The notes under the pieces are model-generated. The model had not been told where the DNA came from, searched no databases, and worked only from the letters and a program-made list of their open reading frames with translations. From assembly GCA_021813905.1 (NCBI GenBank), contig JAKAJH010000003.1:12967-76966 (forward strand): a stretch of 64,000 nucleotides of DNA. Direction: 5' to 3'. Of the stretch, positions 16,652 to 35,247 are shown piece after piece (positions within the stretch are counted from its first letter, which is position 1; every line of letters begins with the position of its first letter). The DNA comes from Bacteroidota bacterium. GTDB lineage: Bacteria > Bacteroidota > Ignavibacteria > UBA10030. The position numbers were made by a program, and so were the translations under genes.

Positions 16652-17325
16652 CAACTCCATCAAAGATCCGGATTCTCCTTGCTGATGATCATCCGCTGGT
16701 GCGCAGCGGACTGACGAAACTGCTTGAACCGCACAAGGAGATCGTGGTGGTCGGGGAAGCCGGCGACGGAGAAGAGGCGGTCGCACTTGCCCGTTCACTT
16801 CGTCCGGATGTTGCGGTGATCGATTTGTCCATGCCGAAGATGAACGGCATTGAGGCGACACGGCTGATCTGCCAGCAGACGCCGTCCGTGCGCGTCCTCG
16901 TACTCACCATGCACGACACCGAAGAGTACATCTTCCAGATCCTGAAGGCCGGAGCCGGCGGGTACGTTCTCAAGAACAGCGGCCGTGAAGAGCTGGCGGC
17001 GGCGATCACGGCGGTTGCCCGCGGCGAAAAGTTCTTCAGCCCGCGCGTTTCTGAAATCATGGTACAGTCGTACCTGAAGAAGGCGGAAGGCCGGGACGAG
17101 AAACCCACGGCCGACGACCTTCCGCTCACGAAGCGTGAACGCGAAGTTCTCCTCCTCATCTCCGACGGACTGAACAACACGCAGATCGGAGAGAAGCTTT
17201 TCATCAGTCCCCGAACAGTGGATACCCACCGGACAAACATCATGCAGAAGCTGGACATCCACGACGTGGCCAACCTTGTTCGATTTGCCTACGAGCACCG
17301 CACGATCCTCCTGAAGACGAAGTAG
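16648..17325 (+). CDS. NarL/FixJ-family response regulator
   Basis: This 225-residue regulator has a receiver domain (about 7-125) with Asp13/Asp14, phosphoacceptor Asp59, Thr87 and Lys109. A LuxR-type helix-turn-helix follows (about 158-215: LTKREREVLLL, FISPRTVDTHR). It is cognate to the overlapping kinase. Targets are not visible, but the large secreted-protein cluster begins less than 1 kb downstream and is a natural candidate. Confidence 0.95.
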   Translation: MTTPSKIRILLADDHPLVRSGLTKLLEPHKEIVVVGEAGDGEEAVALARSLRPDVAVIDLSMPKMNGIEATRLICQQTPSVRVLVLTMHDTEEYIFQILKAGAGGYVLKNSGREELAAAITAVARGEKFFSPRVSEIMVQSYLKKAEGRDEKPTADDLPLTKREREVLLLISDGLNNTQIGEKLFISPRTVDTHRTNIMQKLDIHDVANLVRFAYEHRTILLKTK

Positions 17326-17525: not shown

Positions 17526-17945
17526 ATGGAGACAGTCAAAGTTCTCATCGCCGAAGATAAGGCCGAGATCCGGCGGGCTTTGCGGGCCTTTTTGACCCGA
17601 CATCCAAATGTTGTGGTCGTCGGGGAGACGAACGTCGACGCAGACGCGGTCATCACTGCCGGTGAAGTTCGCCCTGACGTCGTGCTGATGGACATGGGAG
17701 TGCCGGGATGGCTGAGTCTGGTGACAGCCCGGATGATCAAGGAAAAGGCTCCTGCGGCAAAGATATTCCTTTCGACCATCCACGACGACACCGTCTACTC
17801 GGAAAAGGCAAATTCGGCTTGGATTGACGGTGTCATAAGCAAACTTGATCTCATGGCGGGGCTTCGCTCGATGCTGACAGCTGTTTCGCCTGAGGCGACG
17901 ACGAGACAATTTGGAGGAGGAATGAATTCGCAGTACCCACTGTGA
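17526..17945 (+). CDS. Stand-alone receiver-domain protein
   Basis: This 139-residue protein is a receiver domain with no output domain. The acidic pocket (Glu10, Asp11), phosphoacceptor Asp56 in VLMDMGVPG, Thr84 and Lys106 are all present, so phosphorylation is expected. ATG 17526 is preceded by a purine-rich GGGAGAGAAGAAG. It may act as a phosphate sink or protein-interaction switch beside the kinase/regulator pair just upstream. The last 20 or so residues are not typical of the domain. Confidence 0.85.
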   Translation: METVKVLIAEDKAEIRRALRAFLTRHPNVVVVGETNVDADAVITAGEVRPDVVLMDMGVPGWLSLVTARMIKEKAPAAKIFLSTIHDDTVYSEKANSAWIDGVISKLDLMAGLRSMLTAVSPEATTRQFGGGMNSQYPL

Positions 17946-18252: not shown

Positions 18253-21200
18253 ATGTTTCCAGTCGATGACAGGCTTAGCTTTGGTGCCGAGACCGAGTTG
18301 AGGGAGGCGAGGTCTTATTACCCCGCGCTTGCGGCGTTGCCCAAGAACTACGCCGTCTTTCCTCATTTCTGCCTGTCATTTTGTCCCATGTCGTTCCGCA
18401 ACTCCAAAAATATCGCGAAGTCTTTTCCCTTGAGGGGCGCGCCCCGGGTGGGGATGTGCGGACTTGTGCGAACCCTCGTTCACCTGACGTCGGCCATTCT
18501 GCTTCTTCTCAGCCTCGGTTCATTTGCTGCTGTTGCCCAGAGCCTCGCGAACTACACGGTCACTCGGACGACCGGAATCACGTACAGCTCGATCGCAGCG
18601 ATCGGAAATTCCGTCCCGAGCTGGCGCAATTCCACGCAATGGGTACAGGACGATAATCGGAGCTATCCGATTCCCATTGGCTTCGACTTCTGGTACAACG
18701 GAGTTCGCTACACCACCATCAGTATATCGACGAACGGATTCGCGGACTTCTCATCCTCAACGGCCGACGGCACGATCGGTGCAGATCAACTCGGCCGTGA
18801 CTATGATTCTCAGAATCAGCGAGTGTCGAGCACCAGCGGACTGATCGCTTGGAACGTACTGGCGCCGTTCTATGACGATCTTACCACGCAAAACGAAGCC
18901 GATCCACTGGGCACGAGCATTAAGTTCCTGACCAGCGGCACCGCGCCGTACCGCGTCTTCACGCTCGAATGGATCAATATGAGCGTGTGGAACTATGCCG
19001 GGTTAGGGACCAGTCTGAATTTCCAGGTAAAGCTGTACGAGACAACCGGCGTCATCGAATTCGTGTACGGCACCATGACAAGCGGGTCGGCGGTCTATAG
19101 CGCGACCTGCGCGTTCAACGCTGCGGATCTTTCCGGAGGACTCACGACGGCTGTCCTTCGGACGCAACAGAAGATCAATACGGTCACCTTCACGGCGAGA
19201 CCGCAGAACAATCTCACATCCTCTCCTGCGTCGAACTCTCGCCTTGAGATCACGCCACTGTCCGCCGCGGCACCCACGGGGATGAACTTCGTGAATGTGG
19301 CACAGACTTCCATGCGCGTCCGGTGGACGGATAACGCCACGAACGAAGTCGGATATGCCATCTACCAGTCCAGCGATGGATTGAACTATTCCTTCGTTCG
19401 TCAGGACCCCGCTCGAGCAAGCACCGGGCTCGACTCTGCCGACATCAGCGGACTCGTCAGCGGGACAACCTATTACTTTCGCATCATGGCGGTGACGGAG
19501 GGACAGGTCAGCGCCGCAGCGACCGGATCACAGGCGACGCTGCCGGCGGGCGATGATACTTCGGCGCAGAGCGGACTCTGGAGCTTGCCGTCCACATGGT
19601 CGAGCGGCAGTGTGCCCGGCGTCGGAACGAACGTGGTGATCCACGACGGGCATACCGTGACGATCGACGGGAACATCATCGCGAACAGCGTCACCGTCGG
19701 AACCGGCACGAGCGGAAGCCTGCAAATCGGTACCGGTAGCACGGCACTGACCGACACAGTGCTGAGCGCTTTCACCGTCCGGCCCGGCGCGACATTCACG
19801 GTAAATGCGGCATCGACCACGACGGGGCACCGCCTTGTGCTGGGCGGAAATCTGGTGAATGACGGGATCGTGAATTTTGCACCGGCGCCGGGAAGCAAAT
19901 GTGCGCTGACATTCTACCGCACGGGACTGCACACAATCAACGGCACCGGTTCGCAGACAAATCTGTACCGGCTGACCGCGGCGCTTGGACCGGCATCGGG
20001 TGATATGCTCGACATCTTCCCCGCATCACTGACCGCGGACACGGCCGGCTTCCTTACCATCGATCAGGGGATCGTCCGTCTGTCCGCCGCGGGAACGTTC
20101 ACGCCGTTCATCGGCAATGCCTTGATCCCTCAGTTCGCCGGATTCTGGCTGAACAACAGCGGCGCTACGGTGACGGTGAAGGATAGCCTGACGGTGGCGG
20201 GACTGCTTCGGGTGACATCGGGCTCGATGACCGTGGGGACGGCGGTCAACAACCGACTTCTGTCTTCGGGTGGATCATTCATTTTCGAGGGAGGCAACAC
20301 CTCTGTCGCCGGGAGTTTCAACCCGAAGGAAACGACCGCCATCACCGACTTCACGATGACGGGCGGGACGATCACCGTCCCGACGATCGGCACGACCAGT
20401 TCGGCGCTCCAGAACTCCCCGTTTACGGTGGACGTGGTCGGATCGTCGTTCAATATGAGCGGAGGAACGATCGTCGTGCGGGCGGAGGGCGGTGCCGGCC
20501 CGGACGACCTTGGGTACGTCAACACCGGTTCGACGATCTCTTCGGTGACCGGCGGGACTGTGCAAATCGGTTCACCGTCGAGTCCTCAAGGGCAGACGAT
20601 GCGGGTCCGTTCCACGATCCCGATCTACAACCTCAGCGTCAGCGGGACGGGCAACGCCAGCGTGGACGGAAATCTGACCGTCCTGAACGACGTGGCGATC
20701 AGCGATACGCTGTTTGGCGGTTCCTCGACGCTCTCTGTCGGACATAACTGGACAGATAACGGCGTGTTCGTGCCCCAAAGCGGGACGGTACTCTTCAACG
20801 GATCCGGTGCCCAGACGATCAGTCGCCCGGGCGGAGAGCGGTTCTTCGGGTTGACGGTGAACACGACCGGCACGGTGAGCTGGAACGCAGACCTGGCCGT
20901 GGACGGGCCGTTCAATCTGAGCTCCGGTACCGCGAATGTCGGAAGTGACACGCTGACACTGGCGGGATCCGTCGTGGGCAACGGCGCGTTCGTCAGCAAT
21001 TCAGACGGGACCGTTCGCTACGTGCAGGCAACCGGGGGACAGAACATACTCGCGGGCTCGTACGGCAATTTGACGCTTGGAAATGCGGCAAAAGTGTTCC
21101 CGAACGGCGGCACCGTTGCTGTCGCTGGGACGTTCGCTCCGGGCACAGGCACCGGGCACGTCGTCACCGGCAGCACGGTGAATTTCACCGGGGTCTCGCA

Positions 21201-24200
21201 GACGGTCGGGCGCTTTGATTTCAATCATCTGATGTTCTCCGGTTCAGGAACTCCGCGCGTTTCGGGACAGGATCTCGTCTCCGGAAACCTGACGATCCAG
21301 CCCACGGTGACGTTGACCTGCGACAGCGCGCTTGTGGTCAATGGGAGTGTCACCAACAATGGCACGACGACCGGCAGCGGGCGGGTCGTCCTGAATGGCG
21401 GTGGAGCCCCCCACTTGCTGAGTGGTGCGGGAACGTACTCCCGTCTGCAGTTGAACGACACGCAGGGCGCAATTCTCTCCGGCAGTCTTTCGATCGACGA
21501 TTCGCTTTCCCTGACTTCCGGCGTGATCAGCACGGGGACCGACACAGTCCGCATCGGACCGACGGGTGTTGTTTCCCGAGTGAACGGACACGTCAACGGG
21601 TGGCTGCGAAAAGTGGTGCCGGCCGGTACGGCGCGAGCGGTGACGTTCGAGATCGGTGATGCGGTCAATTATGCACCCGCCCAGATCTGGTTTAACACCG
21701 TATCGACGGGCGGCACTCTGTCGTGCCGTGATACGGCGATCCAGCATCCGAGCATCAGCTCCTCCTTCATCAATCCCACCGACGGTGTGAATCGGTACTG
21801 GACCCTACGGCCCGGGAACGGATTAGCGTTCACGCCCGGAGCCGGTGATAGTATCCGGCTGACGTACGTGTCCGCCGATCAGGACGTGCCGGCGAGCTAC
21901 CCGCTGTATCGCGTCAACGTGTACAACGGAAGCTCGTGGGACTCCACGGATGCCGGCGGACGGACCTCAACGACGACAACGGGGAAGACGCTCTTCGGAC
22001 TGGGCGATTTCGCGATCGGTGTCCAGAATGCAGCAGGAGCGTACCGCACTGCGCAATCCGGCGACTGGAATCTGGCATCGACCTGGCAGAAATTCGACGG
22101 GACCGCGTGGGTGGCCGCCACCGCGAGTCCGACGAGCACGGATGGAACGATCACGATTCGAAGCGGACACACCGTTACCGTGACGGCGAATCTCACCATC
22201 GACCAGACGATCGTCGAAGCGGGCGCGCACCTCGTTATCGGCACAGGGAACATCACGCTGACGATCGCTGGCGGACCGGGCACCGATTTGACGGTCCTGG
22301 GAACGCTGCAGAATGCCAGCAACAACGACATCATAACCACAGGGACTGTGGGATTTGCGGCCGGATCCCGGTACGAGCATCGGCGGCATGGCGGGAACAT
22401 CCCGCTCGCGACCTGGGATGCGACATCGACGTGCGTGATCATGGGCGGTGCGACGGCCGGCGCGACACTGCCGGGGAACCGGAATCAGGCGTTCGGCAAC
22501 TTCCAATGGGACTACGCGACGCAGAACGCGGCGCTGAACCTCGCGGCACAACCGGGCTCCATCCAGGGTGACTTCAGTATCACGAACACGAACGGTCAGA
22601 CTTTGCAGTTGTACTCCGCCGCGGGCCAGTCGATCAGCACGGGCGGTCGCTTCGTGGTGGACGGCGGCACGGTCGTCGGGTTCACGACAAGCACGACCGC
22701 GACACTGACGTTGAACGTTAGTGCTTCACTGGTGGTCGGCTCGGGTCAGTTCAATCTGTCGACGGGCCGGGGCGTTACAGCGAACCTCAACGTCGGCGAC
22801 AGCCTGGTGGTATCCGGTGGCACGCTGAACCTGAGCGGGGCCAACAGCACGATCGGCAGGATCAACCTCCAGGGTCATTTCTTCCATCCCGCAGGGACGA
22901 TCACGGAGACAGCGGGCGGGTCCGGACAGATCAACTTCATCGGCTCGGGCGTGCAGCACTATGTCGGCGGCGGAACCATCCTGAACACGATCAATTTCAC
23001 GGTCGGAACCGGCGCATCGTTGTATCTGGGGACGGACACACTGACCGGATCCGGCACATTCACCCTCTCGTCCGGTGCGACACTCGGGATCGGCTCGCCA
23101 CAGGGCATTTCGTCGTCGGGGGCAACGGGAAATATTCAGGTCACAGGCACCCGATCCTTCAACACGGGAGCGAAGTACGTCTACGACGGCACCGGGTTAC
23201 AGCTGACCGGAAACGGCCTGCCGTCAACGGTGAAGCAGTTGGTCATCGTCAATGCGGCTGGCGTCACTTTGAATGCATCGGTCACGGTGAGTGACACGCT
23301 CTTCCTGACCAACGGGACATTTGCGATCGGTGCGAATACGCTCACCCTGAGCAATACCGCGACAGTCACCGGCGGGTCAATGACGAGCGCCACGACGGGC
23401 ACGGTCGTCTACAACCGCGCTTCAGCCGGACAGCCGGTCCTGCGCGCGCAGTACGGCAATCTGACGCTCAACAACTTCGCCAAAGTCTTCGCCACGGACG
23501 ACACGGTGCGCATTGCCGGGACGTTCCTTCCGGGCACAGCCGCCGGGCATTCGATTGCCGGAACGACGTTCGATTTCAACGGGGCGTCGCAGGTCATTCC
23601 GTCGTTCCGCTTCAACAACCTGCGACTGAGCGGAACGGGGACAAAATCGCTCGGTGCAACGGATACCGTCCAGGGCCGTCTGGATATCCAGGGTGTCACG
23701 TTCAGCGACAGCGTGTTTACTCTGGTGCTGAACGGATCGATCACGAACGCGGGCACGCACACAGGGACCGGACGTATTCGGCTGACGGGGACCTCCTCCG
23801 CTCCGTCGATCACCGGGACCGGGCACTTCGGCAATCTGGAAATCGACAATCTGTCCTTTGGCGCCGCGCTTGGCAGCGACCTGATCGTGGACGGCATCCT
23901 GACGCTGACGCGCGGGATCATTTCCGCCGGTATGGACACAGTCATCATCGGTCCCACCGGTTCCGTGGCACGACCGGTGAGCGGCGGGCATGTGTTCGGA
24001 TATATGCGCAGGTCGGTCTCCACGAGTGCGCTCCCGCAGTCGGTCACCTTCGACGTCGGCGACAGCCTGTACTACGCTCCCATTTCGATGGCATTCGTAT
24101 CGGTGGCGACAGCCGGAACCATGACTGCGCGCACGGTCCGGACAGAGTACCCGACGCTGCAGCAGTCCGGACTTGATCCGGCAAAGTCGGTGAACCGTTA

Positions 24201-26376
24201 CTGGGACGTCCGTAATAACGGCGTCGTGTTCACCTCGTTCGATGGGACGTATACGTTCGATCCGCTGGACGTCGATGCCGGAGCGAACACGGCGATGTTC
24301 TTTGTCCGGCGCTATACGGGTCTTCTCTGGAAAGCCACGACGACAACGGCACGGACCGCGACGAGCACGACGGCTGCCGCCCTCGTCGGGGTCGGGGATT
24401 TTGTCACCGGTGAACTGTCGTCGACGTTCTACTGGACCGGAGACGGGGGGAGCCACAGCTGGAAGGATCCGCAGAACTGGAGCGGACTCAATGTCCCGCT
24501 TCTCACCACGACGGTGATCCTGAATGGTCCGGATGCCATCGATGTCGACACGACCGCGAAAGCGCGGGTGATCACGATGGCCAACGACTCGCTTGTGCTT
24601 ACCGTCCTGCCATCCGCGAACCTTCGGGCGGTCGACACGCTTGCGATGACCCTCGGAACGCTCAACATCCAGACCGTTCGGTTCGATTCCGTGACGACGA
24701 TGGCGTTGAGCAGTGGAACGGTCGCGTACACCGCAGCGAGCGGAACGCAGGTGATCATGCCGGCGGCGTACCGAAATCTGACGCTCAGCGGCGGCGGATC
24801 GAAATCGGCGGGCGGAGCATTCTCGGTGGCGGACACGCTCAGAATCCTGCCGGGATGCACGCTGAATGACAGCACCTCCGTTGTCACTGTAAAGGGGAAT
24901 GTCATCAACGGCGGTGTTCATACAGGCGGCGGCAGGATCCTCCTCAGCGGCGGGGTGGTCGCTCATGGATTGTCCGGCGGAGGGACCTTCACGAACATTG
25001 AGCTGAATGACGTCGTCGGGGCGACTCTTGCCGGAGCCCGAACCACCGTCAGCGGTACGTTGACATTGACCCAGGGCATCCTGACCGTCCCCAACGTGAG
25101 CGACACGCTGAGCATCGGGGCGACGGGCGCGGTGACGCGCTCGAGCGGCTACGTGGTCGGAAATCTGCAGAAGTACGTGCCGACCGGCTCTCCGAGCGTC
25201 GTGTGGGAGGTTGGTTCGCTATCGGCGTATCGGCCGGTACGCATCGCGTTCACATCCGTCACGACACCGGGTTTCATGACGCTGATGCGTGTCGCCGGAG
25301 AGCATCCGAACGCGTCGCATGCATCGAATCTCGTTGACACGACGATGGATGTGAACATCTGGTGGAGACTCGTGAACAGCGGGACTGTTCTCGGCGGGAC
25401 GTTCGAGGCCACGGTGGCGTACAGCAACCCCGGAGAACTGAATGCCGGGGTTACGCCGACGGGGACGGATTTCATCGGTGAGCGGTGGACCGGAACGGCA
25501 TGGATCGGGGTTCCGGTGGGGCAGCGATGGGCCGACAGTACGCGGATTGACAGCTTGACCGCGTTCGGCGATTTTGTCCTCGGCAAGGCGCTTGCCACGC
25601 TTCTTTCGGCAGCACAGAGCGGCCTCTGGAGCGATCCGGCAATCTGGGGTGGTCGCGTGCCGGGTGCCAATGACACCGTGGTGGTCGTGAGTCCGTACAC
25701 AATCACGCTGAATACGAATACGACCATCACGAAGCTCGTCGTGAATTCCGGCGGTACATTCTCGGACAGCACGTTCACGCTGACCCTGACGGGCGACCTG
25801 GTGCTGAACGGCACATGGAAGGGAAACGGAATCATCTCGCTCACGACGGCGAATGATACCATCTACGGCACGGGGTCGGTTGCGGGGACGAGCATCCTGC
25901 AGATCGCGGGCAACAAGGTGGTGCATCCGACAGCGAACCTGACCCTTCATCAGGTCAACGTTGTGGCGGGAGACACCTTGAAGAACATCGGGACCGTCAC
26001 CGCGGACTCGATCGTCGGATTCGGACCATCGTCGGTTTGGCTCAACGCGGCCGGATCCACGCTGGCGGTGAACGGGGCACTGCTGACGAACGGAACGCTG
26101 AATGCGACATCCTGCCCGAATACCGTGGCGTTCGTCGGGACGGCGGATCAGACCGTCAAGGTGACCACGTATTGCGATCTCGTGCTGTCAAATGGGTACA
26201 CCGGAACACTGCCGGACCACACCAAGCTGATTCCTTCGTCGCTGAGCGTTCTGAACAATCTCACGGTTTCACCCGCCACGTTCGTGCAGATCCCCTCGTC
26301 GACGGTCGTGTCGGTCGGTGCGACGTTCGAGAATGACGGGCGCGTCGATAACCAGGGGACGATCCGGACACCATAG
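18253..26376 (+). CDS. Giant secreted beta-strand-repeat protein with FN3 and G8-like segments (2707 aa)
   Basis: The open frame encodes 2707 residues. The likely signal peptide is at 68-97 (MCGLVRTL, leucine run, AVAQS), so the true start may be ATG 18388 or 18454. After a beta-sandwich-like region (98-330) comes a fibronectin type III domain (about 337-431). Four W-containing G8-like segments follow (starting near 437, 1266, 2057 and 2453). The rest is repeats with consensus [YF]-x-x-L-x-L plus a later GxK/GxV. Three modules of about 285-335 residues (926-1260, 1723-2056, 2162-2447) are clear duplications, each ending in GxGDFxxG. No T9SS sorting domain is seen; the protein stops at NQGTIRTP. 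It is likely a surface or matrix adhesin. Confidence 0.85.
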   Translation: MFPVDDRLSFGAETELREARSYYPALAALPKNYAVFPHFCLSFCPMSFRNSKNIAKSFPLRGAPRVGMCGLVRTLVHLTSAILLLLSLGSFAAVAQSLANYTVTRTTGITYSSIAAIGNSVPSWRNSTQWVQDDNRSYPIPIGFDFWYNGVRYTTISISTNGFADFSSSTADGTIGADQLGRDYDSQNQRVSSTSGLIAWNVLAPFYDDLTTQNEADPLGTSIKFLTSGTAPYRVFTLEWINMSVWNYAGLGTSLNFQVKLYETTGVIEFVYGTMTSGSAVYSATCAFNAADLSGGLTTAVLRTQQKINTVTFTARPQNNLTSSPASNSRLEITPLSAAAPTGMNFVNVAQTSMRVRWTDNATNEVGYAIYQSSDGLNYSFVRQDPARASTGLDSADISGLVSGTTYYFRIMAVTEGQVSAAATGSQATLPAGDDTSAQSGLWSLPSTWSSGSVPGVGTNVVIHDGHTVTIDGNIIANSVTVGTGTSGSLQIGTGSTALTDTVLSAFTVRPGATFTVNAASTTTGHRLVLGGNLVNDGIVNFAPAPGSKCALTFYRTGLHTINGTGSQTNLYRLTAALGPASGDMLDIFPASLTADTAGFLTIDQGIVRLSAAGTFTPFIGNALIPQFAGFWLNNSGATVTVKDSLTVAGLLRVTSGSMTVGTAVNNRLLSSGGSFIFEGGNTSVAGSFNPKETTAITDFTMTGGTITVPTIGTTSSALQNSPFTVDVVGSSFNMSGGTIVVRAEGGAGPDDLGYVNTGSTISSVTGGTVQIGSPSSPQGQTMRVRSTIPIYNLSVSGTGNASVDGNLTVLNDVAISDTLFGGSSTLSVGHNWTDNGVFVPQSGTVLFNGSGAQTISRPGGERFFGLTVNTTGTVSWNADLAVDGPFNLSSGTANVGSDTLTLAGSVVGNGAFVSNSDGTVRYVQATGGQNILAGSYGNLTLGNAAKVFPNGGTVAVAGTFAPGTGTGHVVTGSTVNFTGVSQTVGRFDFNHLMFSGSGTPRVSGQDLVSGNLTIQPTVTLTCDSALVVNGSVTNNGTTTGSGRVVLNGGGAPHLLSGAGTYSRLQLNDTQGAILSGSLSIDDSLSLTSGVISTGTDTVRIGPTGVVSRVNGHVNGWLRKVVPAGTARAVTFEIGDAVNYAPAQIWFNTVSTGGTLSCRDTAIQHPSISSSFINPTDGVNRYWTLRPGNGLAFTPGAGDSIRLTYVSADQDVPASYPLYRVNVYNGSSWDSTDAGGRTSTTTTGKTLFGLGDFAIGVQNAAGAYRTAQSGDWNLASTWQKFDGTAWVAATASPTSTDGTITIRSGHTVTVTANLTIDQTIVEAGAHLVIGTGNITLTIAGGPGTDLTVLGTLQNASNNDIITTGTVGFAAGSRYEHRRHGGNIPLATWDATSTCVIMGGATAGATLPGNRNQAFGNFQWDYATQNAALNLAAQPGSIQGDFSITNTNGQTLQLYSAAGQSISTGGRFVVDGGTVVGFTTSTTATLTLNVSASLVVGSGQFNLSTGRGVTANLNVGDSLVVSGGTLNLSGANSTIGRINLQGHFFHPAGTITETAGGSGQINFIGSGVQHYVGGGTILNTINFTVGTGASLYLGTDTLTGSGTFTLSSGATLGIGSPQGISSSGATGNIQVTGTRSFNTGAKYVYDGTGLQLTGNGLPSTVKQLVIVNAAGVTLNASVTVSDTLFLTNGTFAIGANTLTLSNTATVTGGSMTSATTGTVVYNRASAGQPVLRAQYGNLTLNNFAKVFATDDTVRIAGTFLPGTAAGHSIAGTTFDFNGASQVIPSFRFNNLRLSGTGTKSLGATDTVQGRLDIQGVTFSDSVFTLVLNGSITNAGTHTGTGRIRLTGTSSAPSITGTGHFGNLEIDNLSFGAALGSDLIVDGILTLTRGIISAGMDTVIIGPTGSVARPVSGGHVFGYMRRSVSTSALPQSVTFDVGDSLYYAPISMAFVSVATAGTMTARTVRTEYPTLQQSGLDPAKSVNRYWDVRNNGVVFTSFDGTYTFDPLDVDAGANTAMFFVRRYTGLLWKATTTTARTATSTTAAALVGVGDFVTGELSSTFYWTGDGGSHSWKDPQNWSGLNVPLLTTTVILNGPDAIDVDTTAKARVITMANDSLVLTVLPSANLRAVDTLAMTLGTLNIQTVRFDSVTTMALSSGTVAYTAASGTQVIMPAAYRNLTLSGGGSKSAGGAFSVADTLRILPGCTLNDSTSVVTVKGNVINGGVHTGGGRILLSGGVVAHGLSGGGTFTNIELNDVVGATLAGARTTVSGTLTLTQGILTVPNVSDTLSIGATGAVTRSSGYVVGNLQKYVPTGSPSVVWEVGSLSAYRPVRIAFTSVTTPGFMTLMRVAGEHPNASHASNLVDTTMDVNIWWRLVNSGTVLGGTFEATVAYSNPGELNAGVTPTGTDFIGERWTGTAWIGVPVGQRWADSTRIDSLTAFGDFVLGKALATLLSAAQSGLWSDPAIWGGRVPGANDTVVVVSPYTITLNTNTTITKLVVNSGGTFSDSTFTLTLTGDLVLNGTWKGNGIISLTTANDTIYGTGSVAGTSILQIAGNKVVHPTANLTLHQVNVVAGDTLKNIGTVTADSIVGFGPSSVWLNAAGSTLAVNGALLTNGTLNATSCPNTVAFVGTADQTVKVTTYCDLVLSNGYTGTLPDHTKLIPSSLSVLNNLTVSPATFVQIPSSTVVSVGATFENDGRVDNQGTIRTP

Positions 26377-26378
26377 CT

Positions 26379-27959
26379 GTGCAGCGGGCCGTATTCCATA
26401 TCGCCCATTCGCCGCAGTTCAGGCAATCCGCAAGCCGACGCAACGTGTCGGCATTGGTGTTTCTTGCCCTGCTGCTCGTGGCTGCCGTTGTGCCGGCGCA
26501 GACGATCCGGAACAACGGGACGATGAACAACACCGGCACGCTGAACTGTGCCAGCTTCTACAACTACAAGGGAGGGACACCGGGCACGCTGAACAACACG
26601 GGCACGGTGAATGCTTCGTTGCTCTTCGACAACAATCTGACCGGCGCGACAGTCAACAACAACGCCGTCGGTAAGATCAATCTCACCGGCGCGACCAGCA
26701 GTTACACCAACGGTCTTGGCGCGACGTACAACAACACGGCGACCAGCCGGATCGCTGTTGCGGCGACGCTGAGTGTGGGAACCGGCACATTCGTGACGTC
26801 GGCCGGTGAAGTGCTGTACAACGGCACGGCCGCCCAGACCATTGCGCCGCTCTCGTACGGCATCCTCTCGACGGCGACGGGCGGCACGAAATCGCTCAGC
26901 GGAACGACGGCGGTTCAGTCGTCTCTCTCCATCGGTTCGGGCACGACGTTGAGTGTGGCGGGTGATACGCTGACGATCAACGGCATCCCGAGCAATGCAG
27001 GGACGTTCGCCGCCAACGCTGCAGGATCGCTCGTCATTTACAACGGGGCGGGGAATCAGTCGGTCCTCGGTGCTTTGTACGACAATCTGACTGTCCAGAA
27101 CGGCGGTACGAAGACCGCGCTCGGAGCCGTCGATGTGGCGGGCAGGCTGACGAACACGGCGACATTCGACCTCTCGACCTTTGCGTTGACCACGGGTGCA
27201 TCGGCGTCGATCGTCAATACCGGCTCGACGATCCAGACGGCGGGGAATGTCACCTTCGGTGCGCGTCACCTGATCGACGGTACGTTCATCTACAACGCAT
27301 CCTCCGGCAGTCAGACGCTGGGGGCGGCTTCCTACCTGAACATGACACTTTCCGGCGGCAGCGGGGCGACGGGTCAGAAGAATTTCCCGGCTGACACCGT
27401 GAGCGTTCGCGGAATCTATGCGATCAGCGGCGCGAACCGAAATTACGGCTCGGGCGTCTTCGCCTATGCCGGCGCGGCCGCGCAGACGGTCTTCTCGTCG
27501 GAGGCGTACGCCGGACTTACGATCACCGGCGCCGCAGATACCAGTGTGCACAAGACTGCGGATGGAAATCTCACGCTGTCCGGAGCGCTCTTCATTGCCG
27601 CGAACAATACGCTGGATATGCTTGGCTTCGGTGGCACGTTCGGGTCCGGTTCGATGAATTCGGGTAAGATCATGTGGCAGGGGAACAACGCGTATGTCGC
27701 CGGATCCGGGATGACCGAGTTCTATGGCACAACGCCGGGACTGGTCGCTGTTGGTGCGGCGTACGGCAACATGCGCTTCTCCGGCTCGGGCACGAAGACG
27801 ATCAGCGGCGCGGTGGGCGCGACGGGCGGCAATGCGGCGTTCGGTGTCACGATTGATTCGAATCTGACGATCGGTGTGGGCGCATCGTTGACGATCACGG
27901 GCATGGATATGAATGCGATTGGACCCATCACAAACAACGGAACGATCACCGTTCAATAA
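26379..27959 (+). CDS. Secreted beta-strand-repeat protein (526 aa)
   Basis: This protein starts at a GTG two bases after the giant gene's stop, so the pair is coupled. A signal peptide covers about residues 20-41 (ALVFLALLLVAAVVPAQ). Mature protein opens with TIRNNGTMNNTGTLN and consists of Asn/Gly/Thr-rich strands with about five copies of the repeat seen in the giant protein (for example YDNLTVQNGGTKT, YGNMRFSGSGTKT). The C terminus is ITNNGTITVQ. No enzymatic domain, cysteine pattern or sorting domain is visible. It is probably a beta-solenoid structural protein. Confidence 0.8.
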   Translation: MQRAVFHIAHSPQFRQSASRRNVSALVFLALLLVAAVVPAQTIRNNGTMNNTGTLNCASFYNYKGGTPGTLNNTGTVNASLLFDNNLTGATVNNNAVGKINLTGATSSYTNGLGATYNNTATSRIAVAATLSVGTGTFVTSAGEVLYNGTAAQTIAPLSYGILSTATGGTKSLSGTTAVQSSLSIGSGTTLSVAGDTLTINGIPSNAGTFAANAAGSLVIYNGAGNQSVLGALYDNLTVQNGGTKTALGAVDVAGRLTNTATFDLSTFALTTGASASIVNTGSTIQTAGNVTFGARHLIDGTFIYNASSGSQTLGAASYLNMTLSGGSGATGQKNFPADTVSVRGIYAISGANRNYGSGVFAYAGAAAQTVFSSEAYAGLTITGAADTSVHKTADGNLTLSGALFIAANNTLDMLGFGGTFGSGSMNSGKIMWQGNNAYVAGSGMTEFYGTTPGLVAVGAAYGNMRFSGSGTKTISGAVGATGGNAAFGVTIDSNLTIGVGASLTITGMDMNAIGPITNNGTITVQ

Positions 27960-27980
27960 GCGAAAGGAGGGAACACGATC

Positions 27981-28001
27981 ATGAACAGCCGACCGCCGTA
28001 G
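27981..28001 (+). CDS. Possible six-codon leader peptide ending Arg-Pro-Pro-stop
   Basis: AAAGGAGG at 27963-27970 is one of the strongest Shine-Dalgarno matches in the window and lies 10 bases before an ATG opening MNSRPP and a TAG. Two more AAGGAG/ATG pairs follow before the next large gene. A Pro-Pro pair directly before a stop is a known difficult context for ribosomes. It could be a regulatory minigene or chance; the evidence is only the motif and spacing. Confidence 0.25.
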   Translation: MNSRPP

Positions 28002-28117
28002 ACGAACATCCTCTGAACCATTCATTCTTTCAAGGAGAGAAAGTTATGAATGCAGTGCAGAAGTACGAAACGATCAAAACACAGATGCACAAAACATTTC
28101 AAAAAAGGAGCAATGTC

Positions 28118-29686
28118 ATGTCGTATACGAAAGCAGTTTCGCGGATCCTGTCGGCGGTGTTCTCAATCTTCCTGATTGCGAACCTTGCCTTGGGTCAAAA
28201 TCTCAAGCTTGGCGGTAGTGCAACAACGTACGGCGGCACATGGAAAGTGAAAGGCAATATTGACAATACGAACAAGACTGTTGCGGTGACATTCACTGAT
28301 ATCGTTCAACTCACCGGAACGGCAGCTCAGGCGGTCGGCGTGGCGACGAAACCGGATATCAACTTTACGACGCTCACAGCCACCGGTGCTTCAGGGAAGA
28401 CGTTCGCGGTCAACTCGTCGATCGCAACGGCGATTGACATGACCACGGGGACGGGAACGTCGTTTGCGCTCGCGGCCGGCACGAAGCTGACCGTCGTCGG
28501 TGCCGTCAATAATACCGGTACCCAAGGCACGTACGATTTCTCGACTGGCGAAGTGAACTATGCAGGGGCTACCCAGACGGTGTATGGGACGGCGTATGGC
28601 AAGCTGACTGTGAGCGCGGCCGGGACGAAATCTCTTGGAGGAGCGGCGAGCGTCACGACAGCCCTTGGCGTCTCCGCTGGTGATTTGAGCATCGGCGCCA
28701 ATACACTGACCATTGACGGCACCTACACCGTCAACACCGGCAGTTCGGTTATTGGTGGAACGAGCTCCAACATGGTTCTCGGAGGCAATGGTGACCTGCC
28801 GCAATTTGCCGTGACCAATGGACTCAACAACTTCACCCTGAATCGAAACACCAACACCGTCACCCTGTCGAGTCCGCTGTCTGTCGCGGGTGCACTTGCG
28901 CTGAACAATGGTACCCTGGCGGTTGGCACTTCGACCCTGACTTTGAAGGGTGCAGTAAGTGCGGCGGGTTCGGGTGCGTTGACCAGTACTCCCACAGGAA
29001 CGGTCGACTACAATGCTGGTACGCAGACCGTCTTGGCTTCGAACTATGGAAACCTTACTTTCACGGCTGGAAACAAGACACTCCCCTCGACGGGAACGGT
29101 CGGTATTGCCGGTGCATTCTCTCCTGGCCCGGGTACCCCGGTGGTCGCCGGCAGCACGATCGATTTCAACGGTACTGGAACCCAGACCATCCCTGTCTTC
29201 ACGTACAACAACCTCGTGACGGAAGGCGCCGGATCGACGAAGAACGCGGGTGGGAGTCTCTCAATTGCCGGCACGCTTGACAATGGCGGCAGCTTGAATC
29301 AGAATGTCACGCTGAATATGTCGACGTATACCCTGGGCGTGACGGGAGACAACACCGGCGCGACAGTCCAGTTTGGTGGACCCAGCAATGGCGTCCAGTT
29401 CACCACGGGAACGGTCGAGTATAACGCCATTAGCGGTGATCAGATCATTGCAGGCAACGCGAACTACGCGACCAACCGGTATGCCACGCTTCTTCTGAGC
29501 GGTGGCGGGACAAAGACGGTGTCGTCCGGCAACGCGAACGTTGCAGTTGACGGCGGACTCACCGTGGGTTCAACGGTCACGCTCGTTGTTGACCTCGGCA
29601 GGGAACTTCTTGTCGGCTACACCGCCGGCGATCTCACGATTGACGGTACTGTCACGAACAGCGGAACGATCACGGTTGGTCAATAA
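28118..29686 (+). CDS. Secreted beta-strand-repeat protein (522-546 aa)
   Basis: The longest frame starts at ATG 28046, but ATG 28118 gives a clean signal peptide (MSYTKAVSRIL, hydrophobic core, LALGQ) and has AAGGAG at 28105-28110, so it is preferred. The mature protein is almost all Gly, Thr, Asn, Val and Ala, with four clear copies of the family repeat (YGKLTVSAAGTKS, YGNLTFTAGNKT, YNNLVTEGAGSTK, YATLLLSGGGTKT). The C terminus VTNSGTITVGQ resembles those of the two genes before it. The base composition looks less GC-rich than its neighbours. No sorting domain is present. Confidence 0.82.
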   Translation: MSYTKAVSRILSAVFSIFLIANLALGQNLKLGGSATTYGGTWKVKGNIDNTNKTVAVTFTDIVQLTGTAAQAVGVATKPDINFTTLTATGASGKTFAVNSSIATAIDMTTGTGTSFALAAGTKLTVVGAVNNTGTQGTYDFSTGEVNYAGATQTVYGTAYGKLTVSAAGTKSLGGAASVTTALGVSAGDLSIGANTLTIDGTYTVNTGSSVIGGTSSNMVLGGNGDLPQFAVTNGLNNFTLNRNTNTVTLSSPLSVAGALALNNGTLAVGTSTLTLKGAVSAAGSGALTSTPTGTVDYNAGTQTVLASNYGNLTFTAGNKTLPSTGTVGIAGAFSPGPGTPVVAGSTIDFNGTGTQTIPVFTYNNLVTEGAGSTKNAGGSLSIAGTLDNGGSLNQNVTLNMSTYTLGVTGDNTGATVQFGGPSNGVQFTTGTVEYNAISGDQIIAGNANYATNRYATLLLSGGGTKTVSSGNANVAVDGGLTVGSTVTLVVDLGRELLVGYTAGDLTIDGTVTNSGTITVGQ

Positions 29687-30371
29687 GCAGACTGCGGATT
29701 CTCACATAGCATGAAGATGATCGGACCAGCGCGGATATGAACGGTCTCACGCCAGCTCATCCATCCATGGGTGGGTGAGGCGGGGCTTTGGAACCGACCC
29801 GGCTCCGGTCACTGACTTGACATACGAAACGGCTTTGCCGAGCGGGCAATTGCGAAGAGATCGCACAGCATCAAACGATTCCGGTGCTGTGGCGGATCGC
29901 TTCCACAAGCCCGTTTCGGAGCCATTCCTCATCACAGAGGAGTTCCTCTCCTTGCTCCTGTGTGACGCGGGAACTGGCACCCGGACGTGGTCCGGGGAAA
30001 TGCCGTGAGTTCAGATACCTTCACGGGAAGGCGGGTTTTCGCTCCTTCCCGCCTTCCCTTGGGTATTCCGGGAGAGGCAACAGGAGCGGCCAGAACAAGG
30101 ATCTTCGGCTTGTCGATACGAGCGACATATGCATTGACCACAACACCAGTCGGCGGAGACAGAACTCCGCAGACCGGCAGAACACGCGCTTCATCGCTTG
30201 AACCACGACGGTCCGGGATTCTCTGTCCAGACGTGGGTGCACGCATTGAAAACGACCTGGAGCGATTCGTCAGGTTCTTGTGGCCTGGTGGATCGAACGG
30301 CACATAGGATTTCACTCCATATCGGCGGGAGAATGACCGATGACGGGTGACGCACGCCTGTTCATAGTGTC
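29687..30371. other. 685-base gap inside the repeat-protein cluster
   Basis: No open frame here has a plausible product: the candidates are short, Arg/Pro-rich and lack ribosome-binding sites. A perfect 11-bp inverted repeat lies at 30025-30058. A TTGACA at about 29816 lacks a convincing -10 partner. The region probably holds the promoter of the 1366-residue gene, and possibly an unrecognised small RNA, but I cannot support either directly. Confidence 0.5.
30025..30058. repeat. Perfect 11-bp inverted repeat (terminator-like hairpin)
   Basis: GGGAAGGCGGG (30025-30035) is the exact reverse complement of CCCGCCTTCCC (30048-30058), around a 12-base T-rich loop. There is no T run after either arm, so it is a weak intrinsic terminator at best. 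Confidence 0.5.
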
Positions 30372-33300
30372 ATGGGTATATCTGTTCTTGCATCAATCGG
30401 GACCGCAGAGCGGAAACCGGCAAGGGAGCAGTGCAGGGAGAAGTGTACTGAATCGTCGTTCATGAGACGACAACCAACATATCGCAATCGTTCGCGCGGA
30501 CGGCCGCCCTGGCATGTGGTCGTTGGCCTCATCCTCGCGCTGACCGCGCTGTTCGGCGTTGACGCGAGCGGGCAGAATGTCATTGCCCGTGGCCGGATCA
30601 CGAACAATGGAACGTTCCGCATCCAGGGTAACTCCCAGGGCATGTCCGGGAGTCTGAACGGCACGTTTGAGTACTTTGGCGGCAACCAGTCGATCGCCGG
30701 CCAGTCGTACCAGACCCTGCTGCTGAGCGGAACCGGCACGAAGTCGGCCGACAGCAGTATCACGGTCTTCCAGCACGTGACGGTGGCCCCGGCGGTGACG
30801 CTGCAAATGCAGCCCGGTGCCGTACTCCGTCTTGACGCAGCGGGCGGGCGGCTCACCGAGAACGGCTACGTCAGCGGCAAGCTGGAGAAATCGGAACAGC
30901 TCGCGACCGCATCGGCATCGACCGACTTCGGAGGGATCGGTCTGTCCGTCCGGTTGGGTGCGCAAACGCCCGGCTTGACCACGGTGGAACGGATCTCCGG
31001 AACCGCGACCGTCGTGAACGGCAAGTCGTCGATCCGCCGGCAGTTCGTTGTCACTCCGGCCGTGCTGTCGACAAGGTTCGACACGCTCCGGTTCTCGTAC
31101 GCTTCAGATGAGGTGACGGGTCAGGATACCGCGTCGCTTGATCTGTGGCGTTCGATCGACGGAGGAACGACCTGGCGGCGGCAGCATACCGTGCGTGACG
31201 GAACGGCGAAGACGCTCTTCCGGCGGGGGATCCCGCTCGCCGGTATGTGGACGGCGGCGGACTCCGGGAATATCATCGGCCGACCGAACTACGAATGGGA
31301 TCCGGATTCACTCTGGCGGGTGACTCCAGATTCCGTCCGCGGACGGGTCGGTCGCATCCTCGACGCGTTCATCGCTCGAGTGTCCGACGTGTACGGCAAT
31401 CCGGTTGCGGGCGTCCCCGTGACCTTCCGTGTCGTCTCCACACCCACAGGTGCGATCGGCGCATCGCTGACGCAGGTTTCGGCCGTGACGGACTCGCTCG
31501 GCAACGCATCCACCCAGCTCACCCTCGGAAATCTCCGCGGCGACTATGCCGTCGAAGCGAAGGTAATTTCCGGATCGGCTCCGCCGACCGCGTTCCACGC
31601 CCATGCGGATCCGGGTGCGGTCGCACTGCCGATCGCGGCCGGCAATCTCCAGACCGACTCCATCCGCACGGTCCTGCCGACGGCACTCAGCGTCGTCGCG
31701 AAGGATTCGGCTGGCATCGGTGTGCAGGGCATCCCGGTGGCATTCACAGTCATTCAGGCACCGGCAGGAGCGACCGGTCAGCAGTTCGTCAGCGTCTCGG
31801 ATACAACGGATTCCGTCGGCGTGGCGCATGCGTCGTTCCGCTTTGGTACGAAAGCAGGGACGTACGTGATCCGGGCGGTATCGGCGGAGATCCCGGGCGA
31901 CTCCGCGACCTTCCAACTGACGGCTACGCACGGTGCACCGGCGCTGGCCTGGAAGGACAACGTGGCGCGGCAGGATACGATCGGCACAACGCTTGTACCG
32001 TTCGTTTATACAGTGACTGACGGCGACACGAATGCGGTGCCCGGCCGGACCGTGCAGTTCGCCGTTGCACAACGACCGGCGGGAGCAGTCGGCGATTCGC
32101 TGCTGACCGTCTCCGCGACGACCGATTCGCTCGGTCGTGCCGTTGCGACATTCCGGCTTGGTACGAAGGTTGGCACGTATGTCGTGAATGCTGCCGATGC
32201 GGGACTTCCGAATTCGATCCGCGCGTTCTCTGTCACGGCCAGGCCCGGTCTCCCGGCCTTCGGGCTTGCAGTCGTGCCCGCACGGGCCGACACGATCGGT
32301 GCGTTGCTGGCGCCGTTCACCGTGCGCATTGCCGATCGCGGCGACAATCCGGTAAGTGGTGTGCCGATGATATTTGCGTTCGCCGGCACGCCGGCCGGAA
32401 CGGCGGGCGATTCGCTGCTTGTCCTTCGGGCACAAACCGACACGCTGGGTCTTGCAGCGGTGCAGGTGCGTCTGGGCGACAAGGCGGGGGACTATTCTGT
32501 CCGCGCGACGTCGACGGCCATACCGGGTTATGCCGGCGTGGAGCTCTTCCGGGCCCAACCGGGCATGCCGGCGTCCGTCGTGGTGAACTCCGGTGCGAAC
32601 CAGTCAAAGAGCATCCTGCAGCCGCTCGATTCGCTGATCGCGGTCCGGCTGACGGATCGTGCAGCCAATGCCATTCCGCTCGACTCCGTGGAATTCCGGA
32701 TCATCGGCGCACCGGCGGGCGCGACCGGACAGGTACTGAGCTCTTCGATGGCCGTCACCGATTCGTCGGGATTGGCGTCCACGCAACTGATGCTGGGAAC
32801 GAAGACCGGCACGTATGAAGTGCTGGCCCGCTCGGTACGCCGCGCGGGTGTATTCGTGTCCATCGGCGCGACGGCGCGCAACGGTGTTGCGGCGCACATC
32901 GACACGAGCGGCATCGGGGTGCCGACGCAGCCGATCCTGACGGTGCTGAATACGCCGTTCACGGTGCGGATCACGGACGTGGGTGGAAACGCGGTTCCTC
33001 GAGCCTCTGTCACGTTCTCGATTGCCGGACGGCCGGCGGGTGCCGTTAAGGATTCCATTCTCACCTCGACGGCGCTGACCGATTCGACGGGTGAGGCGCG
33101 CACGGTTCTGCTTCTCGGCACGAAGGTCGGTGATTATCTCGTACAGGCGGTTACGGCGGATCTGCCGGGTGACACCGTACAGTTCCGGGCTCGTGCCACG
33201 GTCGGGGCCCCGTCGGCGTTCGTTGCGCTTGCGGGCGCAGGGCAGAGAGCCCAGATCGGCGATCGTCTCCAGGCGTTTACGGTCCACGTCGTGGATGTCG

Positions 33301-34472
33301 GCGAGAATCCGGTCCCGAACGCCGCCGTTGCATTCCGCATTGTGGAACGCCCGGCGCTGGCCAGCGGCGACTCGCTCACGGTGACGACGGCGAAGACCGA
33401 TTCTGCCGGAAGGGCCTCGACAGTCATGGTGCTCGGCAGCCGTCCCGGTCGCTACACCGTACAGGCGTCCGGCACGGGCGTGCGTGACACATCGTTCGCG
33501 GCCGAGGCGATCTTCGTTCTGGCGGATGTCAACAACGACAATTACCAGAACATCGGCGACCTGACGGCAATCATCGACCACATCCTCGGCCGCCGTATCC
33601 TGACAGGATATGATTTCATCAAGGCGGACATCGACAACAACGGCGTTGTGGATGTGCGCGACGCGTTGCGATGCCGTGACAGTCTCCTTGTCGGCGCCTG
33701 GAATCCCGTCTACAATTGGACGACGCAGACGTATCTTGGCAAGAAGTCCGGCGCGATGGCCGCTGCTGCATCCGATCCGCCGGAGAACTCCGGTGACGGC
33801 AACGCTGCGGTCAAATCTGAATTGCAGCGCACACACATCGGAGCGCGATTCTACCTCCGCAACTCCGTGCCGATCAAGGGCTTGCAGGCGACGGTGTTCC
33901 TGAAGCATCCGGCGGATATCGACACGGTCGATCTTGTCTTCCCGTCAGCCAAGATGATGAACGTGAGTGTCCGGAGCGTGGGGAACGAGGTGCACATGGT
34001 GCTGTTCAACTTCTCCAACACGCCGATCCAGGCGGATACCGGCGCTCCCGTGTTCCGGCTCCCGCTGAAGCTCTCGTCACTCTCGGATATCGACTCGATC
34101 CGTGTGGTGGCCAGCGTGGATACGAATGTGGCATCTCTGGTGCCGTCTGCCACCGAGGATCTGACAAATTCACTGCCGGTCAACTGGACGCTGTATCAGA
34201 ACTATCCCAATCCGTTCAACTCGAGCACGACGATCGAATTTGACGTGCCCGAAGTGGTCGGCAAAGTGCCGCGGCTCGCGGTGCAGATCTTCGACCTGCT
34301 CGGTCGCAAAGTCATCACGATCGAGAAAGGCAACTACGATGCCGGCATGCGCTATCGCGTGGTGTGGGACGGCCGGAACGAGGCCGGCGAACACGTGGCG
34401 TCGGGGGTATACTTCTATCGGTTGCTTGCGGGTGATTACGTGAGCACCAAGAAAATGGTGCTGCTGAAATAA
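30372..34472 (+). CDS. T9SS-secreted Ig-like repeat protein with dockerin-like domain and type A sorting domain (1366 aa)
   Basis: ATG 30372 opens the frame; ATG 30462 (MRRQPT) fits better before the signal peptide (VVVGLILALTALFGVDASGQ). Residues about 67-178 repeat the beta-strand motif of the upstream genes (ITNNGTF, YQTLLLSGTGTKS). Seven Ig-like (Big_1 type) repeats of about 105 residues follow (316-1047), each with PAGAxGDSL, TDSxGxA and LGTKxGxY. A dockerin-like pair of calcium loops (DVNNDNYQNIGD, DIDNNGVVDVRD; about 1050-1107) and a cohesin-like stretch (about 1149-1243) precede the T9SS domain (1273-1366: YQNYPNPFN, FDLLGRKV, KKMVLLK). It should be exported by T9SS and anchored or released at the surface. 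Confidence 0.92.
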   Translation: MGISVLASIGTAERKPAREQCREKCTESSFMRRQPTYRNRSRGRPPWHVVVGLILALTALFGVDASGQNVIARGRITNNGTFRIQGNSQGMSGSLNGTFEYFGGNQSIAGQSYQTLLLSGTGTKSADSSITVFQHVTVAPAVTLQMQPGAVLRLDAAGGRLTENGYVSGKLEKSEQLATASASTDFGGIGLSVRLGAQTPGLTTVERISGTATVVNGKSSIRRQFVVTPAVLSTRFDTLRFSYASDEVTGQDTASLDLWRSIDGGTTWRRQHTVRDGTAKTLFRRGIPLAGMWTAADSGNIIGRPNYEWDPDSLWRVTPDSVRGRVGRILDAFIARVSDVYGNPVAGVPVTFRVVSTPTGAIGASLTQVSAVTDSLGNASTQLTLGNLRGDYAVEAKVISGSAPPTAFHAHADPGAVALPIAAGNLQTDSIRTVLPTALSVVAKDSAGIGVQGIPVAFTVIQAPAGATGQQFVSVSDTTDSVGVAHASFRFGTKAGTYVIRAVSAEIPGDSATFQLTATHGAPALAWKDNVARQDTIGTTLVPFVYTVTDGDTNAVPGRTVQFAVAQRPAGAVGDSLLTVSATTDSLGRAVATFRLGTKVGTYVVNAADAGLPNSIRAFSVTARPGLPAFGLAVVPARADTIGALLAPFTVRIADRGDNPVSGVPMIFAFAGTPAGTAGDSLLVLRAQTDTLGLAAVQVRLGDKAGDYSVRATSTAIPGYAGVELFRAQPGMPASVVVNSGANQSKSILQPLDSLIAVRLTDRAANAIPLDSVEFRIIGAPAGATGQVLSSSMAVTDSSGLASTQLMLGTKTGTYEVLARSVRRAGVFVSIGATARNGVAAHIDTSGIGVPTQPILTVLNTPFTVRITDVGGNAVPRASVTFSIAGRPAGAVKDSILTSTALTDSTGEARTVLLLGTKVGDYLVQAVTADLPGDTVQFRARATVGAPSAFVALAGAGQRAQIGDRLQAFTVHVVDVGENPVPNAAVAFRIVERPALASGDSLTVTTAKTDSAGRASTVMVLGSRPGRYTVQASGTGVRDTSFAAEAIFVLADVNNDNYQNIGDLTAIIDHILGRRILTGYDFIKADIDNNGVVDVRDALRCRDSLLVGAWNPVYNWTTQTYLGKKSGAMAAAASDPPENSGDGNAAVKSELQRTHIGARFYLRNSVPIKGLQATVFLKHPADIDTVDLVFPSAKMMNVSVRSVGNEVHMVLFNFSNTPIQADTGAPVFRLPLKLSSLSDIDSIRVVASVDTNVASLVPSATEDLTNSLPVNWTLYQNYPNPFNSSTTIEFDVPEVVGKVPRLAVQIFDLLGRKVITIEKGNYDAGMRYRVVWDGRNEAGEHVASGVYFYRLLAGDYVSTKKMVLLK

Positions 34473-34482
34473 GGACTCTTCC

Positions 34483-35247
34483 GTGCACGAACGGATGAAG
34501 AATGCTCGGTGGTTCTGGATCCCGGTGCTGATCGCGGCCATTGTCTTCGGCGCTGCGGGATGTGCCACAGGCCGGCCGTACACCGCCGGGCAGGGGGGAA
34601 AGTACCGGTACACGTATCGGATGGTGAAGCCCGTCCGGAGCGACGATCTGCTCTTCCAGGACGACAGCCTCGTCGTTCAGTTCAAGTTCGACGAAGCGGC
34701 GATCCGTTTCCAGATGCAAAATCTCGCGCGATCCGACCTCCGGGTGAACTGGGCGAAGATGTCGATCGGTGTGAACGACCGGTTCTTCGCAGTCCGCCAC
34801 TCCGCGACGCTGTACTCGGACAGCAGTTCCTCCGGTCTCTCCGAGTTGATCCCGTCATACGGGTATATCCGCGATCTGGCGATTCCGCAGCCGAACGTCT
34901 TCTTCGACGGCAACCGATGGAGTGAAGCGGATCTGTTCCCGACGACGGACGGCAACTCGCCCGCAACGCGGGACTCGATCCTGCACAGCGCGGGACAGCG
35001 TGTGAGTCTCATCCTTCCACTGCAGTTCGGGAGTGCGGAGAAGGACTACCGGTTCGACTTCGAAGTGGCATTTGTGAATCGAATTGCGTGGAAGGACTAC
35101 CAGCCTCTTCAGCGAATCCCGCCACCCCCGGCTCCGCAGCAATCTCAATCCTCGATCGATCAGATGACGGCGGCGCTCATCGTGGTCGGTGTGCTCGGCT
35201 TTGCCGCGTATCTGATCACGCTGAAGAAGAATCCGCCGACGGAATAG
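34483..35247 (+). CDS. Lipoprotein with a C-terminal transmembrane helix
   Basis: This 254-residue protein (from GTG 34483; ATG 34495 is an alternative) has a lipoprotein signal with lipobox AAGC, giving lipidation at Cys27 or Cys23 depending on the start. A soluble domain (about 45-205) is followed by a proline/glutamine-rich spacer (PPPPAPQQSQ). A second hydrophobic helix (about 225-245: IVVGVLGFAAYLI) comes near the end. A lipid anchor and a C-terminal helix in one protein is unusual. It starts 11 bases after the T9SS cargo gene and may be cotranscribed with it. No family was recognised. Confidence 0.75.
   Translation: MHERMKNARWFWIPVLIAAIVFGAAGCATGRPYTAGQGGKYRYTYRMVKPVRSDDLLFQDDSLVVQFKFDEAAIRFQMQNLARSDLRVNWAKMSIGVNDRFFAVRHSATLYSDSSSSGLSELIPSYGYIRDLAIPQPNVFFDGNRWSEADLFPTTDGNSPATRDSILHSAGQRVSLILPLQFGSAEKDYRFDFEVAFVNRIAWKDYQPLQRIPPPPAPQQSQSSIDQMTAALIVVGVLGFAAYLITLKKNPPTE

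Follow-up and report, generated by a model that had tools for sequence, protein, structure and literature searches.

A four-gene cluster of an Ignavibacteria bacterium that may encode the matching pieces of one beta-solenoid surface structure

We analysed a cluster of four genes, here called A to D, that lies in a 64,000-nucleotide stretch of the genome of a Bacteroidota bacterium (assembly GCA_021813905.1, contig JAKAJH010000003.1, positions 12,967 to 76,966; class Ignavibacteria, order UBA10030), referred to below as the window. The four open reading frames, all on the plus strand, encode proteins of 2707 (A), 526 (B), 546 (C) and 1366 residues (D), each with a signal peptide followed by Q (in B, the cut is predicted before Q41). 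On balance, we lean towards the reading that the proteins of this cluster together build one long beta-solenoid on the cell surface, with their ends stacked on each other and D as the base. What carries this reading are the ends of the proteins and their conservation, the gene order of the cluster, the absence of a C-terminal sorting domain (CTD) of the type IX secretion system (T9SS) from A, B and C, and, for C, the prediction of an open-ended solenoid.

The protein ends that an earlier note on this DNA had pointed out are present in the sequence exactly as it gave them: A, B and C terminate in NQGTIRTP, NNGTITVQ and NSGTITVGQ, respectively, while B and D begin with QTIRNNGTMNN and QNVIARGRITNNGTF. 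To these two starts we add that of C, which is also of the shared type in a degenerate form (QNLKLGGSATTYGGTWKVKGN); the N-terminus of A is a different domain and not a shared start. The repeat [YF]xxLxL..GxK that the same note had ascribed to all four products is present in each of them (2 copies in A, 2 in B, 3 in C and 1 in D; means of 0.02-0.05 in shuffled sequences), though D has this one copy only and consists mostly of Big_1 Ig-like domains. Strings resembling NxGT also occur internally (9 in A, 9 in B and 6 in C, terminal ones included), so that matching ends in four proteins alone could be due to chance, which was ruled out by the comparison of ends across genomes and by the matrix ranks described below.

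Homologous loci were taken from relatives whose genomes include metagenome-assembled ones, and their genes were called by a simple script with some calling errors present (L094, record JAOAFT01, and G002 of the window's family turned out to be one genome). Across the loci with a D gene that we examined, the motif NxG[x][ILVMF]x[VILAM] followed by at most 4 residues forms the C-terminus of 47 of the 52 complete repeat proteins; in a narrower notation, this end reads NxG[TIV][IVL]x[VI] followed by 1-4 residues. The 48 motif proteins have the consensus GDLxNxGxLTNxGTITVG and 1-4 residues beyond the core. This end motif is found in 0/13 related repeat proteins from outside the D cluster in the same order, most of which have a T9SS tail (e.g., L145, L146, L147, L150, L152, L153, L155, and L159), while those of L144, L151, L162, and L163 end in another domain that is DUF11-like where tested. 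Fisher's exact test for 47/52 versus 0/13 gives p = 5e-10, a value that serves as a guide only because related genomes are not independent.

The N-terminal sequences of 25 D orthologues, among which G7 and G13 of the rung are invariant and N11 nearly so, were the sole source of a matrix with which every repeat protein was scanned. The top score fell on the extreme C-terminus in 21/49 cluster proteins (0.5 expected at random), this end was among the top three in 40/49 compared to 0/13 controls, and the best segment of 13 further cluster proteins, as counted from the listed positions, lies at the mature N-terminus. For A of the window, the final 12-residue segment ranks first of 2696, with the window's own D being 1 of the 25 rows. 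A profile of the D N-terminus similarly matches the C-termini of B/C-type proteins (e.g., DLINNGAITNNGTIAVQ-COOH with E 1.2e-5), other C-termini such as LTNNGAITNAGTIRVQ-COOH, and B/C-type N-termini such as QDLVLNGNITNNGLIRVRR. Matrix and profile matches therefore point to one double rung with which both D and the short proteins begin and with which the upstream proteins end.

The same layout of a large A, short B/C-type genes, D, and the adjoining gene E was found again in around 25 genomes of the order, and all end-motif proteins that were counted (44/44) are encoded upstream of D and on its strand. Homologues that stand alone without the cluster, which the earlier note would have taken as evidence against its model, did not turn up: no end-motif protein lacked a D where the contig was long enough, and D loci without end-motif proteins stop at a contig edge. 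Two loci were resolved by hand, with a frame ending in GTITNNGAITVGS-stop located upstream of D in L126 and the apparent start of D located at the contig edge in L031, while L140 holds a fusion that is not orthologous. A-type proteins carry different heads (SANY..SWRN..DDNRSFPIPIGFDFWY or G8-like) and a shared tail, B/C types have the shared rung at both ends, and D has a shared head and a unique tail, so that the gene order equals a possible chain order A-B-C-D. When C was used as a query against its own genome, matches were confined to the cluster (C itself and A), and no Pfam or NCBIfam family was matched by B or C. We rejected the idea of a frameshifted single gene, given that each piece has its own signal peptide and mature start and that the organisation is kept in other genomes.

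The T9SS protein that had been proposed among the four is indeed D, which matches TIGR04183 above its curated cut-off (Table 1) in a genome with translocon genes: Matches to SprA_N (3e-58) and PorV (7e-32) together with 51 T9SS-tail matches imply that a T9SS is present. No match to Por_Secre_tail, TIGR04183 or CHU_C (type A and type B sorting domains) was found in A, B or C. Full-length D including its N-terminal rung was found within this order only; searches beyond the order recovered only the middle domain, in unlike proteins, and when genome contigs were searched with the D alignment, most matches were due to the T9SS tail, with no true named D orthologues beyond one record. This middle domain, for which Foldseek reported ankyrin ZU5 with a probability of 0.99 but an E of 0.08, recurs across the order and phylum in many proteins with a CTD. 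After the dockerin of D (33522-33900), there is a conserved segment (VPIKGIQxxIxLK) that looks cohesin-like by eye.

The structure of C as predicted by AlphaFold2 with 12 homologues is one solenoid from around residue 51 to the end (predicted local distance difference test, pLDDT, 87.4; predicted template modelling score, pTM, 0.81), a call that was read from repeated short strands and the repeat sequence. Closed, capped solenoids had been named in the earlier note as an outcome that would speak against stacking, but the C model is uncapped at both ends: Its last strands span residues 535-538 and 541-544 of 546, with no helix or loop cap. The N-terminal 320 residues of D were modelled with a pLDDT of 91, of which the first 30, though conserved, reach only 66-83 (66, 83, 68); a conserved start of lower confidence would fit an edge that lacks its neighbour, which we take as weak evidence from modelling. 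For neither C (best E 0.07) nor D (best E 0.03) did Foldseek find a significant match in the PDB, and we therefore claim no structural family. A sequence search of solved structures found none for C and one weak match for D.

The rung could instead be an end cap that closes the solenoid edge against aggregation, with each protein being an independent secreted monomer. Beta-solenoids usually require protection of their edges, the last pair of strands in the C model, modelled with good pLDDT, is the rung, and NxGT-like rungs occur internally as well. We nevertheless consider this account unlikely, as the rung is absent from the ends of repeat proteins that lie outside the D cluster, a rung shared by both ends would leave each with a complementary open edge, the C model predicts no helix or loop as a cap, and the gene-order link to D would be left unexplained. 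Even less likely in our view is that the C-terminal motif takes the place of the CTD in A, B and C as a tag for sorting or export, with the likeness to the D start as a by-product of the repeat. Such a tag would sit where this motif does, at the exact C-terminus where related repeat proteins elsewhere in the order bear a CTD, but the motif is also found at the mature N-terminus of B/C types and of D, which has a CTD of its own, and in the C model it belongs to the solenoid rather than forming a separate domain. Each of the two covers part of the pattern but leaves unexplained why D starts with this rung. Finally, the very improbable reading that the ends match merely through a common repeat and without special function, for which internal NxGT strings and the repetitive fold could be invoked, was rejected by the D-matrix rank test and its controls (exact C-terminus in the top three in 40/49 versus 0/13 related repeat proteins elsewhere) and by the constant distance of 1-4 residues to the stop in 48 proteins.

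Coming back to pieces that stack into one solenoid, a double rung of approximately [GQ][DN]LxNxGx[LI]TNxGT[IV]xV would end each piece, and the presence of the same double rung on each of them makes rung-on-rung stacking possible. The solenoid would be continued from one subunit to the next by placing the C-terminal rung of the first on the N-terminal rung of the second, comparable to how the last and first repeats of CsgA stack in curli. With its unique N-terminus and shared C-terminus, A would be the distal piece, while B and C, shared at both ends, would be internal pieces, each present once or perhaps repeated. D would be the base on the cell side, in which the shared rung and a single solenoid unit come first and the Ig domains and the only CTD last. 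We infer the end-to-end contact, the chain order, and the surface location of A-C from these features. D would be exported by the T9SS, with A, B and C reaching the surface together with D or joining it there. The CTD is the part of a substrate to which the T9SS translocon binds (PMC10994853), so that A-C should travel bound to D or take another route.

Several observations weigh against this assembly. The strict end motif is missed by 5/52 cluster proteins, comprising two near variants (A with NQGTIRTP and L038 with NNADINIGN) and others, among them probable errors in gene calling or a dissimilar A-type protein. The rung Asn is lost in some D orthologues (GTYKGPGLFQVKG in L030 and L132), the start of C in the window is degenerate, and conservation of an end rung would fit a cap just as well. 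Moreover, A-C have no CTD and no known export route, and no description of CTD-less T9SS subunits that are exported with a partner was found in a literature search of incomplete coverage. Head-to-tail stacking on a T9SS base, as first suggested from the sequence, is therefore supported in part: It fits all evidence and held in the checks for lone homologues and, for C, for a capped model, either of which would have spoken against it.

Proteins with comparable architecture are found as single chains elsewhere in the order and class (L147, L152, L159, and L167), where solenoid units are followed by a D-type middle domain and then a CTD. They resemble the cluster in repeats, middle domain and the order of both, but differ in being one polypeptide with its own CTD and without the NxG end motif. 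As far as sequence comparison goes, these relatives support that the repeats and D are physically linked and suggest that the cluster is a split version of single-chain solenoid proteins. A broader proposal, which we hold only tentatively, is that the cluster makes a multi-protein T9SS fibre in which the base alone bears an export domain, CTD-less solenoids are exported or assembled via NxG-rung stacking, gene order sets chain order, and the whole is a non-covalent split of single-chain adhesins. Among other families of the order, a second type of cluster (L144, L151, L160, L162, and L163) encodes CTD-less A-like solenoids that end in a DUF11-like strand and adjoin proteins of approximately 360, 560, 1050, and 1160 residues with similar ends ([YF]xVxI[NQK]); this is possibly another matched-end assembly.

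Among known systems, curli are built from a solenoid that continues across subunits by head-to-tail stacking of repeats R5 and R1 (PMC10192328). The cluster resembles them in open-ended solenoid subunits (a trait that is predicted by modelling for C), similar first and last repeats, and Asn/Gln ladders, as well as in a dedicated base, the nucleator of curli, that is encoded with the main subunit (PMC10192328). By contrast, its repeats are much larger and different, there are several distinct subunits, the base D bears a T9SS sorting domain where curli use the CsgG channel, and no Curlin repeats (Pfam) were found in A-D or 12 C-type homologues. T9SS type A adhesins of the RemA and RemZ type are like D in their signal peptide, Ig-like domains, and type A CTD, but A, B and C differ from them in lacking a CTD even though close repeat relatives elsewhere have one. 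Filamentous haemagglutinin and other two-partner secretion (TPS) adhesins are long secreted beta-helices with NxG-type turns, and the cluster proteins share these properties. However, Pfam searches of A-D and the 12 C-type homologues found no N-terminal TPS (haemagglutination activity) domain, and no TpsB-like partner is present among the neighbouring genes examined. A C-terminal outer-membrane beta-barrel as in autotransporters gave no Pfam match either, and the chains end in a solenoid rung.

All features are listed in Table 1. For A, an alternative start is possible at 18388 (MSFRN..). The gap between C and D (29687-30371, 686 bases) holds no convincing gene and no Rfam match, and the gaps before D in L126 and L031 are longer. 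An Rfam scan of the window gave no match, and scans for promoters and terminators did no better, or hardly better, than chance. Downstream, E adjoins D in most loci and has phmmer matches in 12 other D loci, with no Pfam family found for it. Upstream, the set of kinase, regulator and receiver genes also precedes the cluster in L033, L034, L035, and L125 and partly in L148 and L154, with short receiver-like proteins before the cluster in all six of these loci (L033-L035, L125, L148, and L154). The histidine kinase is likely a regulator of the cluster, and the surrounding genes probably regulate and serve it.

Table 1. Positions of the cluster genes, their shared rungs and domains, and neighbouring genes in the window
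Feature	Position	Strand	Basis
A, secreted solenoid protein, 2707 residues; fn3 and G8-like repeats, unique N-terminal domain, no CTD	18253..26376	+	Pfam (repeats)
A, C-terminal shared rung GATFENDGRVDNQGTIRTP-COOH	26317..26373	+	D N-terminus matrix
B, solenoid subunit, 526 residues, GTG start, signal peptide, no CTD	26379..27959	+	
B, N-terminal shared rung QTIRNNGTMNNTGTLNCASF, first mature residues	26499..26558	+	Sequence, signal peptide prediction
B, C-terminal shared rung MDMNAIGPITNNGTITVQ-COOH	27903..27956	+	End motif, D N-terminus matrix
C, solenoid subunit, 546 residues, signal peptide, no CTD	28046..29686	+	
C, N-terminal shared rung, degenerate, QNLKLGGSATTYGGTWKVKGN	28196..28258	+	Orthologue alignment shows NSGTIKVKGN here
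C, C-terminal shared rung GDLTIDGTVTNSGTITVGQ-COOH	29627..29683	+	Motif, alignment, matrix, predicted strands
D, T9SS cargo, 1366 residues, proposed fibre base	30372..34472	+	Orthologue alignments
D, N-terminal shared rung QNVIARGRITNNGTFRIQGNS, first mature residues	30573..30635	+	Conservation in 25 orthologues, profile
D, single solenoid unit (GTFEYFGGNQSIAG..YQTLLLSGTGTK)	30654..30767	+	Unit profile
D, middle beta domain, weak hint of a ZU5-like fold	30846..31244	+	Profile; Foldseek
D, Big_1 Ig-like domains, 6-7 stretches	31368..33521	+	Pfam PF02369, 1e-41; 10/10 orthologues
D, dockerin type I	33522..33671	+	Pfam PF00404, 23.5 bits vs cut-off 22.9; 6/10 orthologues
D, T9SS type A CTD	34203..34469	+	TIGR04183, 37.9 bits vs cut-off 23; PF18962
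E, conserved lipoprotein, lipobox AAGC, C-terminal hydrophobic segment ending KKNPPTE	34483..35247	+	
Histidine kinase (PAS, GAF, HisKA_3)	14993..16651	+	Pfam; homologue in the same place in L033, L034, L035
NarL/LuxR-type response regulator	16648..17325	+	Pfam; conserved upstream in L033, L034, L035, L125
Stand-alone receiver-domain protein	17526..17945	+	Pfam Response_reg, 2e-12

Substrates of the T9SS are defined by a C-terminal sorting domain. If the cluster does encode the pieces of one structure, the T9SS could build multi-subunit surface structures most of whose subunits lack a sorting domain, and the principle of curli, a solenoid that is continued across subunits, would have a second, unrelated case. 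The end motif itself could be used to find and link such subunits in other genomes.

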